From: Bacteroidota bacterium
GTDB lineage: Bacteria; Bacteroidota; Bacteroidia; B-17B0; Aurantibacillaceae
Length of the DNA stretch: 64,000 nucleotides
Direction of reading: 5' to 3'
NCBI GenBank assembly: GCA_016185125.1
Contig: JACPOC010000022.1
Location: 124,001-188,000 of the forward strand
The notes under the pieces were generated by a model. The model worked only from the letters and a program-made list of their open reading frames with translations, was not told the origin of the DNA and made no database searches. Positions 1,939 through 55,336 of the stretch are shown here, piece by piece (positions within the stretch are counted from its first letter, which is position 1; the number at the start of each line of letters is the position of its first letter). Made by a program: the position numbers and the translations under genes.

Positions 1939-3042
1939 CTAAAATTCAACAGCCCTTTTAACTTTTGTGGCCGTTGAAAAAATCTCCAAATATTTCTCCT
2001 TATTTGCTTCAACAGAATATTTTTCGATAACGGTTATTCTTCCGTTTTTTCCTAATCTTTCACGAAGCTCTTTGTTTTCGATAAGTTTACATAAAGCATC
2101 AAACCATTCTTGGTCGTTATTCGCTAATAAACCGTTTACATTATTTTCAATAATAGTGGCGTTAACTCCAACGTTACTCATTACCGTTGCAACTTCGCAG
2201 GCCATGTATGAAAGTCCTTTTAGTCCGCACTTACCTTTTGTCCACTCATCGTTTATCAAAGGCATAATACCAATGTCAAATGTGTTTAATTGAGCCACTT
2301 CGGTGTTTTCGCTCCAGGAAATGGCTTCAATAGTTAACTCAGAGTTTTTATAATTGGAATCTCCAATAATTTTAAAATGAATTTTGTGTTTATATTTTTC
2401 TTTTACGCGTTTTAAAACAGGCAGCAAGGATTGGAAATGTTTAATGGTACTGATACTCCCGCTCCAACCTATGTTAATCACTTCTTTATTTCTGAGTTGA
2501 GGTTTGGGAGCATGAATATCGGTATCTATTGTCGTGGGAATAATTACCGTGTTCTTATTTACGGTTTTTGCTTTATCGGCTAAATAGCTATTGCCCGCAA
2601 TTATTATGCTGGCATAAGAAATTGTATTAAAAAATTTTGATGGTTTCTTTATCCAGGCCCATTTTTTATTAGCGGGACTTGTATCCTCGAGCCAGATGCT
2701 ATCGTCAAAATCAAATATTACTTTTGCTCCCGATTCAAATGCTTTTTTTTCAAAGTATGAAGTTCCTAAAAACAAGGCCTCGCGTTGTATAAAAATAATA
2801 TCGAAATTTTTAAAACGTTTAGCGTCTTTAAATCGGGTAATTAATGTAGTGAAAAGTATAGGAATTTTCTTTAGAGTGTTTCCATTTGAATAGAAAATTC
2901 TATCATTTGTTTCATTTAATAAAGGTGACCAAGTAAAATGAAAGCCTTTTTTTTCAAGAAAAGGAATATACTGTTCAAAGCGGTAACGCTGACTAGGTGA
3001 GCGTTTGGGGCGATGCGCGCAAAGTATTAATACGTTTGGCAT
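1939..3042 (-). CDS. Glycosyltransferase, GT-B fold (family 4-like)
   Basis: The 367-residue protein has the GT-B layout. The N-terminal half carries the early LCAHRPKRSPSQRYR block and the DFDDSIW segment near residue 112. The C-terminal half has an NIGWSGS-type strand near 190 and a GLKGLSYMACEVATV block near 275, followed by EN..GLLA and an LGKNGR helix. The last elements fit the nucleotide-sugar-binding region of family 4 enzymes. It probably transfers a sugar to a surface polysaccharide or lipid at the inner face of the membrane. Donor and acceptor cannot be told. It converges with nadC with only four bases between them, and lies downstream of the AAA+ gene on the same strand. Confidence 0.8.
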   Translation of the reverse strand: MPNVLILCAHRPKRSPSQRYRFEQYIPFLEKKGFHFTWSPLLNETNDRIFYSNGNTLKKIPILFTTLITRFKDAKRFKNFDIIFIQREALFLGTSYFEKKAFESGAKVIFDFDDSIWLEDTSPANKKWAWIKKPSKFFNTISYASIIIAGNSYLADKAKTVNKNTVIIPTTIDTDIHAPKPQLRNKEVINIGWSGSISTIKHFQSLLPVLKRVKEKYKHKIHFKIIGDSNYKNSELTIEAISWSENTEVAQLNTFDIGIMPLINDEWTKGKCGLKGLSYMACEVATVMSNVGVNATIIENNVNGLLANNDQEWFDALCKLIENKELRERLGKNGRITVIEKYSVEANKEKYLEIFSTATKVKRAVEF

Positions 3043-3088: not shown

Positions 3089-5713
3089 TCATTCCTGTCC
3101 GAACTTAAAGCCTAATGTAGCGCGGCTTCCTGTACTCTCAACCAATAAATGTTTTACATCCTCCAGTACTAATTGTGCAAGATCTTCTTTTTTACGTTTA
3201 TCGGAAGGCATAGAGGCTAATCGTAAATTTTGCTTCATCACTACATCGCCAACAATTTGCCGGGCAGTGCGCGCGTTACCAAAAAATGCGTCGCGGTTTT
3301 CATATAAATTAGTAAGGTAAGCTTTAAGATGCGTTTCAGCTTCAGGTGTAGCGCTTAGACTTTCTTTATGCAAAAGATTCTTAGTTATTTGCCAAAGTTG
3401 TTCGGGGTTGTAATCCTGAAACACAAAAGTTTTATCAAAACGCGATTTAAAGCCCGGATTACTTTCAATAAACACGTGAATGTTTTCGGTATATCCCGCC
3501 ACGATCACGCCAAATTTTCCACGCTGATCTTCCATACGTTTTAAAATAACCTGAATGGCTTCCTGTCCAAAATCATTAGAAGAACCTTTGTTGGCAAGTG
3601 CGTAGGCTTCATCAATAAATAAAATACCGCCCATTGCATCTTCCACAACTCCGGCAGTTTTAGTGGCGGTTTGCCCCACGTAACCGGCAACTAATCCTTC
3701 ACGGTCTACTTCCACCACATGGCCTCGTTCTAAAACACCAAGTGCTTTATAAATTTTTGCAATGATGCGAGCCAAAGTGGTTTTACCTGTTCCGGGATTA
3801 CCTGTAAATACTGAATGCAAAGAAAATTTGTTCACCACATCTTTACCGGTTTCATTGTAAAAACGAATAAGCTTAACTAACTCCTGAACATCTTGTTTTA
3901 TTTTTTCCATTCCAACAAGATCATTCAGTTCTGCTAAAGCATCATTGAGTTGTTTTTCGTTGATAGAAAGTTTTAGTTTTTTCTTTTGTTCAGTTAAGAA
4001 AACCTGTTCAAGATCTTCCAGAGTAATTGTTGAAATATCTTCATTGGTAAGAGCTGCCAGATCGGTTGATTTCATTAAGCGCAAACCCATATCCTGTTTT
4101 GCTTCATCCACCACAGCGTTCACAAAACGTGCATTACCAAAATTCTCATCGCGTTTACGATAAGCCTCTGTTAACTGCTCTTTTAAATAGGCATCGGCTT
4201 CGGGTGAAAAAGTAATTTGTTTGTTTTTAGCGGAGTACATGGCAATCTCATACAATTCCTCCGGCATATAATCGTCAAAATGAAAATATTGCGCAAAGCG
4301 TGATTTTAAACCGGGATTGCTTTCTATAAAATGATTGATTTGCTTTGGGTAACCTGCGCCAATAATAGCAATATCTCCGGGGCCATCGCTCATTTCCTTT
4401 AACAGGATCTCAATCACTTCTTTACCAAAATCTTTACTGTCATCATCGGATCTTGCCAATGAATAAGCCTCATCAATAAATAGAATGCCGCCGCGGGCAC
4501 TGTCTATCATTTTTTTGGTTTTAGGCGCTGTTTGCCCGATGTACTCACCCACTAAAGCCGCACGGTCAACTTCCACCACATGGCCTTTTGAAAGAAGACC
4601 CATTTGATGATAAATTTTACCAAGCATTTTTACGATGGTAGTTTTACCTGTTCCCGGATTGCCGGTAAACATGCTGTGCAAAGCGAGTTTTTCTGAATCA
4701 ATAAAACCTTTTTCCTTTCGAAGTTTGGTAAAATTTAAATAAGTTATATTTTCTCTGATAGATTTTTTTACGTTCTCAAGTCCGATAAGAGCGTTTAGTT
4801 CTGCTAAAAGTTCTTCTAATGTTTTTGGGTTTTTAGAATCATCTACTTTAGCGGCGCTTGAGGATGAAGAGCTGCCAACCGACACGGCCTGCTCAATGGT
4901 TTTAATAATTGGGGTTTCACCTTCCTCGGCTGTAGGGCCGCATTCAAAGGTAGCGGCTGCTACTAATACATCGTTAAACACAACCTCTACTAAGTATTTA
5001 TCATCTGTCCAAATTCCGCCACTATCGCTTCCCCAGGCTTTTTCAAAGGTGTAAGTATAATCTACTTTGTTGGAATCAACAAAACCGGTTTGCGATAAAG
5101 AAGCTTTTGGCTGACCTGCATCATCATAAAAATTAATAAAAATTTCGTAGTGATAATCCAGATTACTAAGATTTTTAAATTTTACTTCGGCCCATACATA
5201 CTTCGTTTCTGATTTGCTAAAGGTTTTAAGATATTTCCGATTACGTTCCTGCCAACCGTTAGAGTGACTGTCATATAATTTAATGTGTTCAATTTCCATA
5301 TAAGGATTGGAAACGTTAGTAACCAAGCCCACTTCGTTAACATGATAAACCTGCTCTCCTATAAAAACATCATCCACATAAGCCATCCATTTGTAACTTC
5401 CTTTTTTCCAAAAGCCGCCTTTGGTTTCAACGCCCCAACCATCGCGTAAATAATAGATGTTATCATCTTTTTTAACGGTAATGGCTACTTCCCTGTTGCA
5501 AAATTCTTCTTTGCCTTTAAGATCAAAGCATTTTAAATTTACTTTCGCGGTCCAGTCTTCTTCATCAAAAAGTTTGTTGTAAATAGCAAGTTCTACGCGT
5601 ATATAATCAATTTCATCTTTATCAAAGCAGGTGCGGTACCGTTTAAGGTTGTTAACCATCCATTCATTATTACAAAAAGTTTGTAACGACTTAAATTTAA
5701 ATCTCTTCTCCAT
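3089..5713 (-). CDS. Tandem CbxX/SpoVK-type AAA+ ATPase with two N-terminal beta domains
   Basis: The 874-residue protein has four parts. Residues about 15-127 and 135-258 are two related beta-rich repeats, each with a W-G-x(n)-GG-x-W region and a final V..G.....-type strand. A Ser-rich linker (280-287) follows. AAA+ module 1 has Walker A GNPGTGKT at 351-358, Walker B LFIDEA at 411-416 and SNPGLKSRF near 465. Module 2 has Walker A at 638-645, ILFIDEA at 697-703 and SNPGFKSRF. Both ATPase sites look intact. The AAA modules belong to the CbxX/CfqX/SpoVK group, which remodel protein complexes. There is no Rubisco here, so a CbbX role is unlikely. No signal peptide or membrane segment is present, so it is probably cytosolic. 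Substrate unknown. Confidence 0.85.
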   Translation of the reverse strand: MEKRFKFKSLQTFCNNEWMVNNLKRYRTCFDKDEIDYIRVELAIYNKLFDEEDWTAKVNLKCFDLKGKEEFCNREVAITVKKDDNIYYLRDGWGVETKGGFWKKGSYKWMAYVDDVFIGEQVYHVNEVGLVTNVSNPYMEIEHIKLYDSHSNGWQERNRKYLKTFSKSETKYVWAEVKFKNLSNLDYHYEIFINFYDDAGQPKASLSQTGFVDSNKVDYTYTFEKAWGSDSGGIWTDDKYLVEVVFNDVLVAAATFECGPTAEEGETPIIKTIEQAVSVGSSSSSSAAKVDDSKNPKTLEELLAELNALIGLENVKKSIRENITYLNFTKLRKEKGFIDSEKLALHSMFTGNPGTGKTTIVKMLGKIYHQMGLLSKGHVVEVDRAALVGEYIGQTAPKTKKMIDSARGGILFIDEAYSLARSDDDSKDFGKEVIEILLKEMSDGPGDIAIIGAGYPKQINHFIESNPGLKSRFAQYFHFDDYMPEELYEIAMYSAKNKQITFSPEADAYLKEQLTEAYRKRDENFGNARFVNAVVDEAKQDMGLRLMKSTDLAALTNEDISTITLEDLEQVFLTEQKKKLKLSINEKQLNDALAELNDLVGMEKIKQDVQELVKLIRFYNETGKDVVNKFSLHSVFTGNPGTGKTTLARIIAKIYKALGVLERGHVVEVDREGLVAGYVGQTATKTAGVVEDAMGGILFIDEAYALANKGSSNDFGQEAIQVILKRMEDQRGKFGVIVAGYTENIHVFIESNPGFKSRFDKTFVFQDYNPEQLWQITKNLLHKESLSATPEAETHLKAYLTNLYENRDAFFGNARTARQIVGDVVMKQNLRLASMPSDKRKKEDLAQLVLEDVKHLLVESTGSRATLGFKFGQE

Positions 5714-51436: not shown

Positions 51437-51736
51437 TTTTACAATTTTTTTATGCTTTTTAATCGTACAAAAAGGGCTATTCATGCGTATTTATAGTTTA
51501 TTCATCGTCTAATTTATTTATAGTGATTCGCTTTATTCATTTAGGTTTAGGAAATTTACGTAAGTTAAAGATTTTAATTTTTCAATCTGATTACCGTTTT
51601 GTGTCGTATGTTAAATAAAGGCAGAGGAGAAATTTATAGTATCGTATAAATTAAATACGTGAATAAAATCCTATTCTCATTTAAAATTTTTTGTTAATTG
51701 AATATCTTTATTATCTTTAGGTCTCTTCAAAAAAGC
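51437..51736. other. 300-base AT-rich intergenic region
   Basis: No gene is supported between valS and the sensor gene. The sequence is strongly AT-rich with no long hairpin. Apart from the candidate promoter at 51691-51719, I see nothing in it. Confidence 0.5.
51691..51719 (+). promoter_or_regulatory. Candidate promoter of the propeller sensor gene
   Basis: TTG at 51691-51693, an 18-base spacer and TATCTTTA at 51712-51719 match the Bacteroidota pattern except for the last base. It sits 18 bases before the chosen ATG 51737, which also argues against a start at 51698. Confidence 0.45.
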
Positions 51737-54700
51737 ATGTTCAAATTTTATTTTATTTTAGTTACTTTTTTGTTTCTTTTTGCTTGTAAAAATTCAAATA
51801 AACAAAAGGCAAAAGTAGTAATAAACACTGATTCGTTGGCTGATGTTTCTGTCGCTTCAAAACCTATTATTGTTATCCATAGGGCAAAAGTTCAGTATAC
51901 GGATGCTTTAAAGCCGCTTTCTGTTAAGTCGAGCCAGCCAAGAGTTTTTCCCGCAAACGCAAATATAATTCCTTTAGAAGGTGAACTTACATCAAGCAAT
52001 ATTCCGGCCAATCTAAGAATGGTCACTCCCGGAAAAGATACATTTTTATTACCTGTAAGTATTCCTCTTAAAATTAAAAACGTTCCCAGTAAGCAGCCTG
52101 TTTCTGTTTCCGCTTTGCCGCCCAGGTTTAAAGACGCCTCTGTGTCCGATATTCAATATCTCGACGTTGATCAGGGCATGAGTTCATCTTTTATAAAAAG
52201 TGTTTTAACCGATAAATCCGGTAATCTTTGGTTTGGTACAAATGGCGGAGGCGTTAGTCGTTATGATGGCCGGTCGTTTGAGCATTTTACTGAAAAGAAT
52301 GGATTAAGTAATAATAAAGTGCTAACTATTTTTCAGGACTCTAAAGGTTCATTATGGTTTGGAACTGAAGGCGGCGGTGTTTGTTGCTATAACGGCGATA
52401 ATTTTTTATGGATTACTGACGAGGAAGGCCTGGGAAACAACACGGTTTTAGCTGTTTGTGAAGATAAATCGGGCAACATGTGGTTTGGCACAAATGGCAA
52501 TGGTGTTTATAAATACGATGGAAAAAATTTAACCGCTTATACTGAAAAAGAAGGATTAAGTAATGGCAGTGTAAGAAGCATCATTGAGGATAGTAAAGGC
52601 AATATGTGGTTTGGCACAACAGGCTCAGGCGTGTGTAAATTTGATGGCGTATCTTTTACTTATTTTGGAGAAAATGAAGGATTAAACAGCACCATAATAC
52701 ATTCAATTATTGAAGCCAAGGACGGAAAACTTTATTTTGCAACCGAAGATGGCGGAGTTAATATTTACGATGGTAAAACCATTAAATACATAACAGTAAA
52801 AAAAGGGTTAAGCAGTAATTGTGTGGTGTCTCTTCACGAAGATAAACTGGGCAACATTTGGATAGGAACTTACGACAGTGGCTTGTGTAAATATAACGGC
52901 CAGGAGATTTCTGTTTTTTCAACTAAGCAGGGATTAACTAATAATTATATTCTTGCCATGAGCGAGGATAATTCAGGAAGCCTTTGGTTAGGAACTCTTG
53001 GCGGTGGTGTATGCCGTTTCAATAACGGATCGTTTTCGCATTACACCGAAAAAGAAGGCATTGGAAGCAACACCGTACGCTGCATAACAGCCGATAAAAA
53101 CGGCAATTTGTGGCTGGGCACATTTGGCGATGGCGCTATTTATTATAATGGCAGCAGTTTTGCGCATTATTCAGAAACTGAAGGAATGCCAAGCGCAAGG
53201 ATAAAAGCATCACTTGTTAACGGAGATCATGTTTGGTTTGGAACAGAAGAAAACGGCGCTGTGCGTTTCGATGGAAAAACATTTGAGCGGTTTACTAAAG
53301 ATCAGGGCTTAAACAGTAATTATATTTTAAGCATGTGTCGGGATAAAGATGGGCGCATTTGGTTTGGCACCGATGAAGGAGGAGTTTGTTTTTATAACGG
53401 CAAGCAGTTTGTTTCACTTATTGATGAAGACGGATTAAGTAATGGTATTATTCCTTCTATTATTCAAGATCGATCAGGAAATATGTGGTTTGCTACCGAC
53501 GGCAACGGCGTATGTTGCTACAACGGCAAGTTTTTAAAATGGTATAACAAAAGAACAGGTCTTTGCAGTAATGTAATTAAAGTAATGTATCAGGATAAAG
53601 CAGGTAACATTTGGTTTGGAAGCGATGGAAATGGCATCAGTGTTTTAAAAGCCTCCAGCATAAATACAAATAAACCTGAATTTGAAAACGTATCAGAAAA
53701 AAATGGTTTAAGCAATAACCTCATTCGTTCAATTGCTCAGGATACTATCGGCAATATGTGGATAGCAACCGAAGCCGGTTTAAATTATCTGATAAATAAG
53801 CCCGGTAAAAAGGACGTGCACATCTACACTTCGGCCGATGGATTAAAAGCGAATAATTTTTTCTATACTTCATTTATTGATAAAAACAATACTATCTGGT
53901 GGGGCAATGGCAAAGCCCTTACTAATCTTAACTTAAATAATTATAAATTACCGCACAATGTTCCCTTAATTCAACTGAGTGGTTTAATACTTGAACAAAC
54001 TTTTATAGATTTTCATTCACTTCGCGATACTTTAAAAACAGGCGCACACGTTCAGGTTGGCGAAAAAGATAAAAAAGATTTGAATGGCGTAGAGTTCTCG
54101 GGTGTCGAAAATTTTTATAATTATCCCCTTAATCTCAGCTTGCCATACAATATTAATCACCTCGAATTTCAATTCAGCGCCATTGATTGGGCCGCGGCCG
54201 ATAAAATTCAGTATCAATATAAGCTCGCCGGGAGCGACGTGGGATGGAGCCCTTTGAGTAAGGATAATAAAGCTTCTTACAATAATTTACCCCATGGCAA
54301 GTACACGTTTTATGTAAAAGCCATTGGCGTTGCCGGAATATGGAGTAAAACGTTTGAATATCCTTTTACCATTCGCGCGCCATGGTATCTTACCTTTTGG
54401 GCTTACGCGCTTTATCTGATTGCTTTTATTGGGATTGTTGTTGGCTTTAATAAAATAAGGACCCGTGCATTAAAGGAACGCCAATATGAACTCGAGCAAA
54501 CAGTAGCCGAACGCACGGCGGAAGTGGTGGAGCAAAAAGAATTGATAGAAGAAAAACAAAAAGAAATTGTTGACAGTATCAACTACGCTAAACGCATTCA
54601 AACGGCTATGCTGGCCAGCGAACAGCTGTTTAATAAAAACCTGCCTAATTATTTTTTATTATTTGAACCCAAAGATATTGTAAGCGGCGATTTTTACTGA
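51737..54700 (+). pseudogene. Two-propeller sensor of a SpoIIE-type phosphatase, cut by an in-frame TGA
   Basis: From ATG 51737 the protein begins with a lipobox-like signal sequence (FLFACK, Cys near 17). Some 13-14 ligand-binding propeller repeats of about 42 residues follow (about 150-670), each with a (W/L)FGT-x-G-x-G-V-x-x-Y-x-G core, enough for two seven-bladed propellers. A Y_Y_Y domain (about 790-890), one transmembrane helix (about 900-920) and a coiled coil (925-965) come next. The frame reaches DIVSGDFY and stops at TGA 54698-54700, where the family has Trp. The SpoIIE/PP2C catalytic part continues in the same frame. The intact protein would sense a periplasmic ligand and control a cytosolic phosphatase. 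Confidence 0.8.
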
Positions 54701-55336
54701 GCCTCTCAAATAGCGGGCGGAAAATTTGTGTTAGTAACAGGCGATAGCACCGGACATGGTGTGCCGGGGGCTATGATGTGCATGCTGAATATTTCCTGTA
54801 TAAATGAAGCGGTAAACGAGCGTAAATACACAAGCCCTGCCGCTATTTTAAATCATGCCCGTCAGCGAATTATTTCTTCTTTATCGGAAGATGGAAGCGA
54901 AGAAGGCGGAAAGGATGGAATGGATTGCAGCGTTACTATTTTTGATATTAAGAACAAAAAACTCTCCTTTGCCGCGGCCAATAATCCGGTGTGGATTGTT
55001 CGGGAAAACAAAGCGGGCGGGCAGCATGAATTGATTGTTTTAAAAGCCGATAGAATGCCGGTGGGCAAACATTCGCGCGACAACATTGCATTCACCGAAC
55101 AAACTTTTGATTTGTTGCCGGGCGATATGGTGTATGCTTTAACCGATGGTTACTGCGACCAGTTTGGCGGACCAAGACAAAAAAAGTTTACTTACCGCAG
55201 GTTAAAAGAGATTCTGGTAGATATTTCACAACAATCACCAAAAGAGCAAAAAGCATTTTTACTGCGCACCTTTGAAAAATGGCGGGGCACTCAGGAGCAG
55301 GTAGATGACGTTTTAATTATTGGGGTGAGGATCTAG
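54701..55336 (+). pseudogene. SpoIIE/PP2C phosphatase domain downstream of the TGA
   Basis: The same frame continues without another stop to TAG 55334-55336 (211 codons). It starts ASQIAGGKFVLVTGDSTGHGVPGAMM, the usual continuation of DIVSGDFYW, and carries GKDGMDCSV, FAAANNPVW, ALTDGYCDQFGG and a final VDDVLIIGVRI, the PP2C/SpoIIE metal-binding and core strands. A separate start near 54728 would lose the first metal-binding strand. Read-through, an error or a real nonsense mutation are all possible. Confidence 0.75.

Follow-up and report, generated by a model that had tools for sequence, protein, structure and literature searches.

A Bacteroidota protein with a repeated beta-sandwich head and two CbbX-type AAA+ motors, a probable client-recruiting remodelling ATPase

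What work is done by a protein that carries two complete AAA+ motors behind a duplicated beta domain, and to which client would such a head direct them? The question is raised by a gene in a 64,000-nucleotide stretch of DNA, hereafter the window, from a Bacteroidota bacterium (assembly GCA_016185125.1, contig JACPOC010000022.1, positions 124,001 to 188,000). The interval 3089-5713 given by a first-pass annotation, made from the sequence alone, was correct, and the gene lies on the minus strand. It is a single open frame of 874 codons with an ATG start, read from 5713 to 3089; the plus-strand reading of the same interval is full of stops. Pfam recognised two AAA and two AAA_lid_6 domains in the 874-residue protein. 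We consider it probable that this protein is a dedicated, non-proteolytic protein-remodelling ATPase of the SpoVK/CbbX/EccA-like clade, and that its head recruits the client. The parts of the gene are the following.

3089-5713, minus strand: whole gene, 874 amino acids, in the order beta1-beta2-linker-AAA1-AAA2 (frame, Pfam, NCBIfam)
5321-5713, minus strand: beta domain 1, residues 1-131, with the strongly conserved loop NKLFDEEDW at 46-54 (alignment and structure model)
4928-5314, minus strand: beta domain 2, residues 134-262, with the conserved loop YDDAGQPK at 196-203 (alignments and model of the domain alone)
4820-4927, minus strand: linker, residues 263-298, of low conservation (identity averaging 25%; none of its 36 columns reaches 95% conservation)
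3998-4819, minus strand: AAA+ module 1 with AAA_lid_6, residues 299-572 (Pfam, NCBIfam, CbbX alignment)
4637-4663, minus strand: module 1 Walker A, GNPGTGKTT, residues 351-359 (homologue alignment)
4541-4543, minus strand: Y391 of module 1, aligned with the CbbX pore-loop-1 tyrosine Y114 (sequence alignment)
4463-4486, minus strand: module 1 Walker B, ILFIDEAY, residues 410-417 (homologue alignment)
3116-3976, minus strand: AAA+ module 2 with AAA_lid_6, residues 580-866 (Pfam, NCBIfam, CbbX alignment)
3776-3802, minus strand: module 2 Walker A, GNPGTGKTT, residues 638-646 (homologue alignment)
3680-3682, minus strand: Y678 of module 2, aligned with the CbbX pore-loop-1 tyrosine Y114 (sequence alignment)
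3602-3625, minus strand: module 2 Walker B, ILFIDEAY, residues 697-704 (homologue alignment)

The family was compared at 128 loci, namely the window, 79 of the 80 best matches of a contig search with the head (411 encoding stretches, of which the best 80 were used) and 48 loci picked from class- and phylum-level matches. One match, L122, had no matching frame and was left out; some genomes occur in both sets, and the loci are not all independent. The protein was 854 to 921 amino acids long at 120 of the 128 loci, 112 of these proteins being distinct. The eight loci with a shorter protein include cut contigs and a single-motor form. The motor motifs GxPGTGKT, DEAY, sensor-1 GY and sensor-2 GN[AG]R were present in both modules of all 112 distinct complete homologues, the sensor-2 arginine standing within GNAR or GNGR in each module (112/112). 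Also conserved in both modules was N-x-G-x-x-S-R, with its arginine six residues past the asparagine; the arginine-finger motif NPGxxSR had one exception among the 112 (NTGxxSR, in module 1). The pore-loop position was aromatic in module 1 of 112/112 homologues and in module 2 of at least 102/112. The earlier claim of two CbbX-type motors with intact Walker A and Walker B sites is thus borne out across the family.

By sequence, the solved structures closest to the modules were those of EccA1 and of CbbX, the latter matching module 1 at E 5.7e-60 and module 2 at 8.2e-54. Y391 and Y678 aligned with the CbbX pore-loop-1 tyrosine; the position of Y114 was counted by hand along the 3syk chain, and those of Y391 and Y678 likewise in the CbbX alignments. 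Replacement of this CbbX tyrosine by alanine leaves the ATPase activity intact and abolishes the activase function (PMC5437159). The best NCBIfam model for the whole protein was that of SpoVK (TIGR02881), which it matched at 517.6 bits, above the cut-off of 422.95. Each module alone remained below this cut-off (278.4 bits for module 1 and 251.2 for module 2). Since the 517.6 bits sum two modules, labelling the protein "stage V sporulation protein K" would be an artefact of the duplication. The whole protein scored under the cut-offs of the CbbX model TIGR02880 (452.5 bits against 459.25) and of the EccA model TIGR03922 (433.1 against 466.65). SpoVK was also the top NCBIfam model for each module taken alone (278 and 251 bits for modules 1 and 2, compared with 246 and 217 for CbbX and 236 and 206 for EccA). 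GY in the sensor-1 region is described as a feature of the SpoVK/CbbX/EccA clade (PMC10659427, section 7). Judged by the model scores, the sensor-1 GY and the sensor-2 arginine, both modules match this clade.

The N-terminal repeat is also real. In a BLASTP alignment of residues 1-133 with residues 134-269, 22% of 110 columns were identical (E 1e-5). Comparison of the beta1 and beta2 profiles with hhalign, each built from 14 homologues, gave a score of 66.4 over 121 columns (97.1% probability, E 6e-11), whereas 40 column-shuffled controls scored from 8.1 to 21.3. This agrees with the earlier description of the N-terminal 260 or so residues as two copies of one beta domain. The W-G and G-G-x-W patterns noticed at the same time were recovered in an alignment of 44 sequences, in which W93-G94, W227-G228, G99, G233 and W102 were invariant and W235 nearly so. 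The two copies are most conserved in different places: the beta1 loop NKLFDEEDW is nearly invariant among homologues, while YDDAGQPK, the most conserved loop of beta2, lies one loop further along the sandwich (strands taken from the model). Since these loops differ in position, the two domains are probably not interchangeable and may present different surfaces.

No Pfam family covered the head. Searches on 44 members returned only scattered weak matches (19 families listed at E 1), and a sequence search of the PDB retrieved no chain at E 10, whether started from one sequence or from a profile of 44 rows. Among the NCBIfam matches listed (25 of 77), every one lay within the motor part. The head was modelled with AlphaFold2 at a mean predicted local distance difference test score of 89.2 for residues 1-285 and 94.6 for domain 2 alone, both domains having eight strands and no long helix. 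The best VIA scores for the head, at Z 10 to 11, were obtained with a glucanotransferase domain, immunoglobulin-like (Ig-like) domains of GH2 enzymes, the carbohydrate-binding domain of Wzt, and AlkC. The head is therefore confidently modelled as Ig-like or carbohydrate-module-like sandwiches. Structure prediction with a fold search had been proposed as the check on the head; it yielded this fold. The top Foldseek match of the two-domain model was RbmA (E 7e-9), with a template modelling score (TM-score) of 0.28 over both domains. The RbmA-like FnIII family PF22021 gave no match above its curated cut-off in 44 members (best E 0.087, 2/44), and across 296 genomes of the phylum none above and five below it, the positive control being found in 0/14 genomes. 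Three of the loci below the cut-off (L239, L240 and L243) were unlike the head when read by eye.

The spread of the family is patchy but not random; the architecture is kept, and a second class of the phylum shows the same module order. Compared with the window protein, the homologues averaged 51% identity in beta1, 47% in beta2, 25% in the linker, 68% in AAA1 and 63% in AAA2. Within the window's class, the head profile matched 89 of 395 genomes, representing 52 of 197 genera (one of these being a weak match in a 1150-residue frame), and it matched 26 of 395 genomes of the phylum at E 0.01, many of them with other architectures. Closer to the window, a match longer than 600 residues was present in 28 of the 60 nearest genomes, and in 24 of 37 within the genus, own genome included; the raw tally of 57/60 nearest genomes includes other AAA proteins. 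Adjacent copies of the gene, of 884 and 1119 residues, occur at L104. A 351-residue single-motor relative in genome G055 (L038) has, by eye, a membrane-anchor-like N-terminus in place of the beta head, and in its AAA part shares 50% identity with module 2.

Other arrangements of the same parts were also observed. The beta pair precedes a single motor in the 598-residue protein of L203, and a single beta domain precedes two motors at L236. In another class of the phylum, proteins of about 1300 amino acids carry one beta domain between a tetratricopeptide repeat (TPR)-like region and three motors; in two such proteins scanned, the Pfam TPR matches were under the cut-off. We analysed 49 loci of this class, nine from the phylum search and 40 chosen from 77 genomes with an AAA match. 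Domain calls, with B for beta and A for AAA, gave B-A-A-A at 26 loci, A-A-A at 20 (no beta domain detected at the threshold used) and B-A-A at three, so that beta was seen in 29/49. A tree was built from 72 modules of 19 proteins of the window's class and 12 of the other, with a midpoint root for drawing only. It joined the AAA1 of the window's class with the AAA1 of the other class (100/96) and AAA2 with AAA2 (100/99), the third modules of the other class falling outside both groups. This pairing leads us to infer that the beta-AAA1-AAA2 core predates the separation of the two classes, although early transfer between classes may explain it instead of common ancestry.

The domain order, the repeat, the intact motifs, the alignment with the CbbX pore tyrosine and the AAA1-AAA2 order common to another class are observed, and they form the basis of the function proposed here. 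In the likely mechanism, the protein would assemble into a hexamer of two tiers, with ATP hydrolysed by each of its rings. The aromatic pore loops would grip a flexible segment of the client and pull it without a partnered protease, and the two Ig-like sandwiches, placed on the entry side, would select that client, whose gene probably lies in another part of the genome. The characterised members of this little-studied clade are described as narrow chaperones with one target or context. Their N-terminal domains are varied and thought to recruit substrates, and the same account found no peptidase associations (PMC10659427). The suggestion that the beta domains look like an adaptor for a substrate or partner fits this published rule. 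The accompanying statement that CbxX/SpoVK proteins have little else beside their motors is not supported, as the N-termini of the clade include TPRs, a beta-helix, a beta-prism and a helicase according to PMC10659427, section 7.

Several points weigh against this reading. No long match was found in 13 of 37 genomes of the same genus, nine of them at least 90% complete; although these are drafts and some absences may be gaps, the gene is on this count not essential in the genus, part of which seems able to do without the protein. With Foldseek and VIA alike, the head matches many Ig-like domains that are unrelated to one another, and for this reason its fold does not reveal a ligand. The beta-AAA-AAA proteins of the other class, represented by two rows in the tree, have a second module that falls outside AAA2, on a very long branch. 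Finally, the client, the hexamers and the ATPase activity are themselves predictions from sequence.

Could the head instead be a cytosolic reader of glycans, comparable to the carbohydrate-binding domain of Wzt, with clients that bear glycans or synthesise glycolipids? Searched alone, domain 2 placed Wzm-Wzt chains at the top of the Foldseek list (E 2.5e-5) and reached Z 9.6-10.4 with the Wzt carbohydrate-binding domain; domain 1, taken from the two-domain model, reached 9.7-10.4. This reading also draws on two-domain homologues that seem to carry a signal peptide. By eye, such signals precede beta-domain pairs in two 278-residue proteins (L233:9475-10311 and L234:8526-9362), and a 661-residue protein containing the beta domain also has an apparent signal sequence (L235:8113-10098). 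Judging from these sequences, use of the head domain apparently extends beyond the cytoplasm. However, the Wzt scores are equalled within 1 Z or exceeded by the cycloisomaltooligosaccharide glucanotransferase (11.3), the GH2 Ig-like domains and the AlkC Ig-like domain; UNC119 and PDE6D also appear near the Foldseek top for domain 2, and no Wzt family was among the Pfam matches of 44 members at E 1. We regard a glycan reader as unlikely.

A second possibility concerns the gene that follows directly on the same strand.

1939-3042, minus strand: glycosyltransferase (group 1) gene, 46 bp downstream of the AAA gene, not counted as part of a conserved system (Pfam)

SpoVK activates the glycosyltransferase MurG (PMC10659427), and by analogy the window protein could be a SpoVK-like chaperone for this cell-envelope glycosyltransferase. 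A scan for terminator-like sites found none between the two genes; promoter-like sites numbered 12 as against 12.5 in shuffled sequence, and terminator-like sites five as against 3.1. Under a looser single-linkage clustering of 81 loci, glycosyltransferase-like genes occurred at 26, all on the strand of the AAA gene, and epimerase-like genes at 19. The epimerase-like gene, named by eye, stands at separate loci, in position -1 at 15 and within five genes at 17. Both clusters split under stricter limits. The window-type glycosyltransferase is then restricted to 15 of the 128 loci, the window included, where all heads are at least 60% identical to that of the window, while the other loci have unrelated neighbours. 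The adjacency looks like inherited local synteny, and we hold a glycosyltransferase chaperone to be quite unlikely.

The remaining neighbours are no more constant. No gene cluster was present within five genes at more than 20 of the 128 loci. A divergent MarC gene occurs at 16 loci and is confined to close relatives. At ten near-window loci, the window not among them, a small predicted membrane protein of about 114 amino acids, channel-like by eye, is encoded a few bases downstream (L069, L072-L074, L076, L077, L080, L081, L083 and L111; close relatives only). GroEL was within six genes at one of the 128 loci (L186, five genes off), and weak ABC-ATPase matches were seen at few. Because no neighbour was found conserved, the suggestion of an unrecognised system built around this protein is not supported for the window's lineage, as far as it implies a set of several genes. 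A random phylogenetic spread without conserved partners had been named as what would refute that suggestion. A conserved partner is indeed missing in the window's class, but the spread, at 52 of 197 genera, is patchy and not random. The absence of known partners was confirmed for two of the cases named. The window genome (99.9% complete) lacks the Rubisco large subunit PF00016, for which the control was found in 5/14 genomes, and it lacks a phage-sheath gene, for which the control was found in 3/14. Elsewhere in the window, positions 51698-55336 encode what appears by eye to be a beta-propeller sensor and a SpoIIE-type phosphatase region, with one in-frame stop at 54698-54700 past which the frame continues unchanged, either a pseudogene or a sequencing error.

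The situation differs in the other class, where the genes at +1 and +2 encode an ABC ATPase and a membrane protein on the strand of the AAA gene at 24 of the 49 loci, with a gap of at most 61 bp between the AAA and ABC genes in 21 of the 24. Where scanned with Pfam (L236 and L237), they are ABC_tran and a PF16949 permease. The operon loci are L230, L232, L236, L237, L274, L277, L280, L281, L284, L286, L288-L291, L293-L298, L303, L305, L312 and L313. They fall into two families, f38 (15 loci), with a divergent DUF2807-cluster gene upstream in 15/15, and f56 (nine loci), with GroEL upstream in 6/9, often as a GroES-GroEL pair. GroEL, named by eye or by BLAST cluster, occurs at 11 and GroES at 10 of the 49 loci. 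Since the upstream genes of f38 and f56 differ, the pairing of AAA and transporter has survived a change of flank. The AAA gene, the ABC ATPase and PF16949 possibly form an undescribed motor-plus-exporter operon.

These observations can be joined with the glycan readings into one machine spanning two Bacteroidota classes. In this joint reading, an ancestral Ig-like reader on two CbbX-type rings would recognise a client linked to a cell-surface glycan or to a glycolipid at the cytosolic face of the membrane and pass it to the exporter. The exporter (ABC ATPase and PF16949) would still be adjacent in one class and would have been lost or replaced in that of the window. As a whole we judge this very unlikely. 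Still less probable is that the window protein itself is part of an ABC-exporter machine of the type encoded by that operon. The recurrence of transporter genes at +1/+2 in 24/49 loci, in two families with different upstream flanks, speaks for a link in the other class. There, however, 116 genomes have the permease without an AAA match, and 37 of the 77 with an AAA match lack it. Overall, 156 of the 391 genomes of that class carry the permease, among them 40 of the 77 (odds ratio 1.8, Fisher p 0.02, uncorrected for descent). In the window's class, relatives of the permease and DUF2807 were found within six genes at 0/128 loci. Because none of the 60 genomes near the window, its own among them, contains PF16949 (control found in 1/14 named genomes), the transporter is not a partner of the window protein.

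An anti-phage ATPase of the IteA/IetA type is equally improbable. Weak matches to IetA (69.5 bits) and IteA (NF042959, 57.7 bits) suggested it, but the cut-off of NF042959 is 510 bits. The window neighbours look housekeeping by sequence (four scanned with Pfam), the two searched against PADLOC gave no match at E 0.01, and the inheritance pattern (class spread and module tree) also speaks against such a role. That the protein is simply stage V sporulation protein K is hardly credible, since it passes the TIGR02881 cut-off only by duplication; moreover, SpoVK itself was seen only in sporulating Firmicutes and carries its own short N-terminal domain (PMC10659427, section 7).

The probable remodelling ATPase with a client-recruiting head thus combines known and new elements. 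The clade, the motor and the principle of a variable head on a constant motor are already known; new is this particular head, without a Pfam family, on a conserved double motor. A search covering part of the literature recognised no paper on this family or on the double-motor architecture. A double-motor member with a modelled head, occurring in roughly one in four genera sampled from its class, offers a tractable route to a new client, and the operon of the other class provides a concrete first partner hypothesis. As scores add up over two modules to pass the whole-protein cut-off of TIGR02881, such proteins run the risk of being misnamed SpoVK and thereby hidden.

Compared with known systems, CbbX, the red-type Rubisco activase, aligns with each window module over its full length, pore-loop-1 tyrosine included, but it has one module and no beta head, and the window genome is without the Rubisco large subunit. 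RbmA, a biofilm scaffolding protein of V. cholerae, is the top Foldseek match, yet with a TM-score of 0.28 and a best PF22021 match at E 0.087; it is not known to have a motor. In Wzt, a carbohydrate-binding sandwich of similar size is attached to a cytosolic ATPase and scores about Z 10 with both head domains, although this ATPase is of the ABC and not the AAA+ type and no sequence-family match links it to the window head. The three-motor proteins of the other class share AAA1 and AAA2 groups with the window family and a beta domain in 29/49, and differ by their TPR-like region, single beta domain, third motor and, in 24/49, downstream ABC genes. SpoVK of sporulating Firmicutes bears the same clade signatures as the window modules, in a 261-position model with one module and a short N-terminal domain, as compared with two modules here (PMC10659427). 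EccA of type VII secretion differs in its N-terminal TPRs and beta-helix and in its single module, where the window protein has two Ig-like domains and two modules (same source). Like the window protein, however, EccA places an N-terminal recruiting region ahead of a CbbX-like module, and the solved EccA1 module aligns with those described here.

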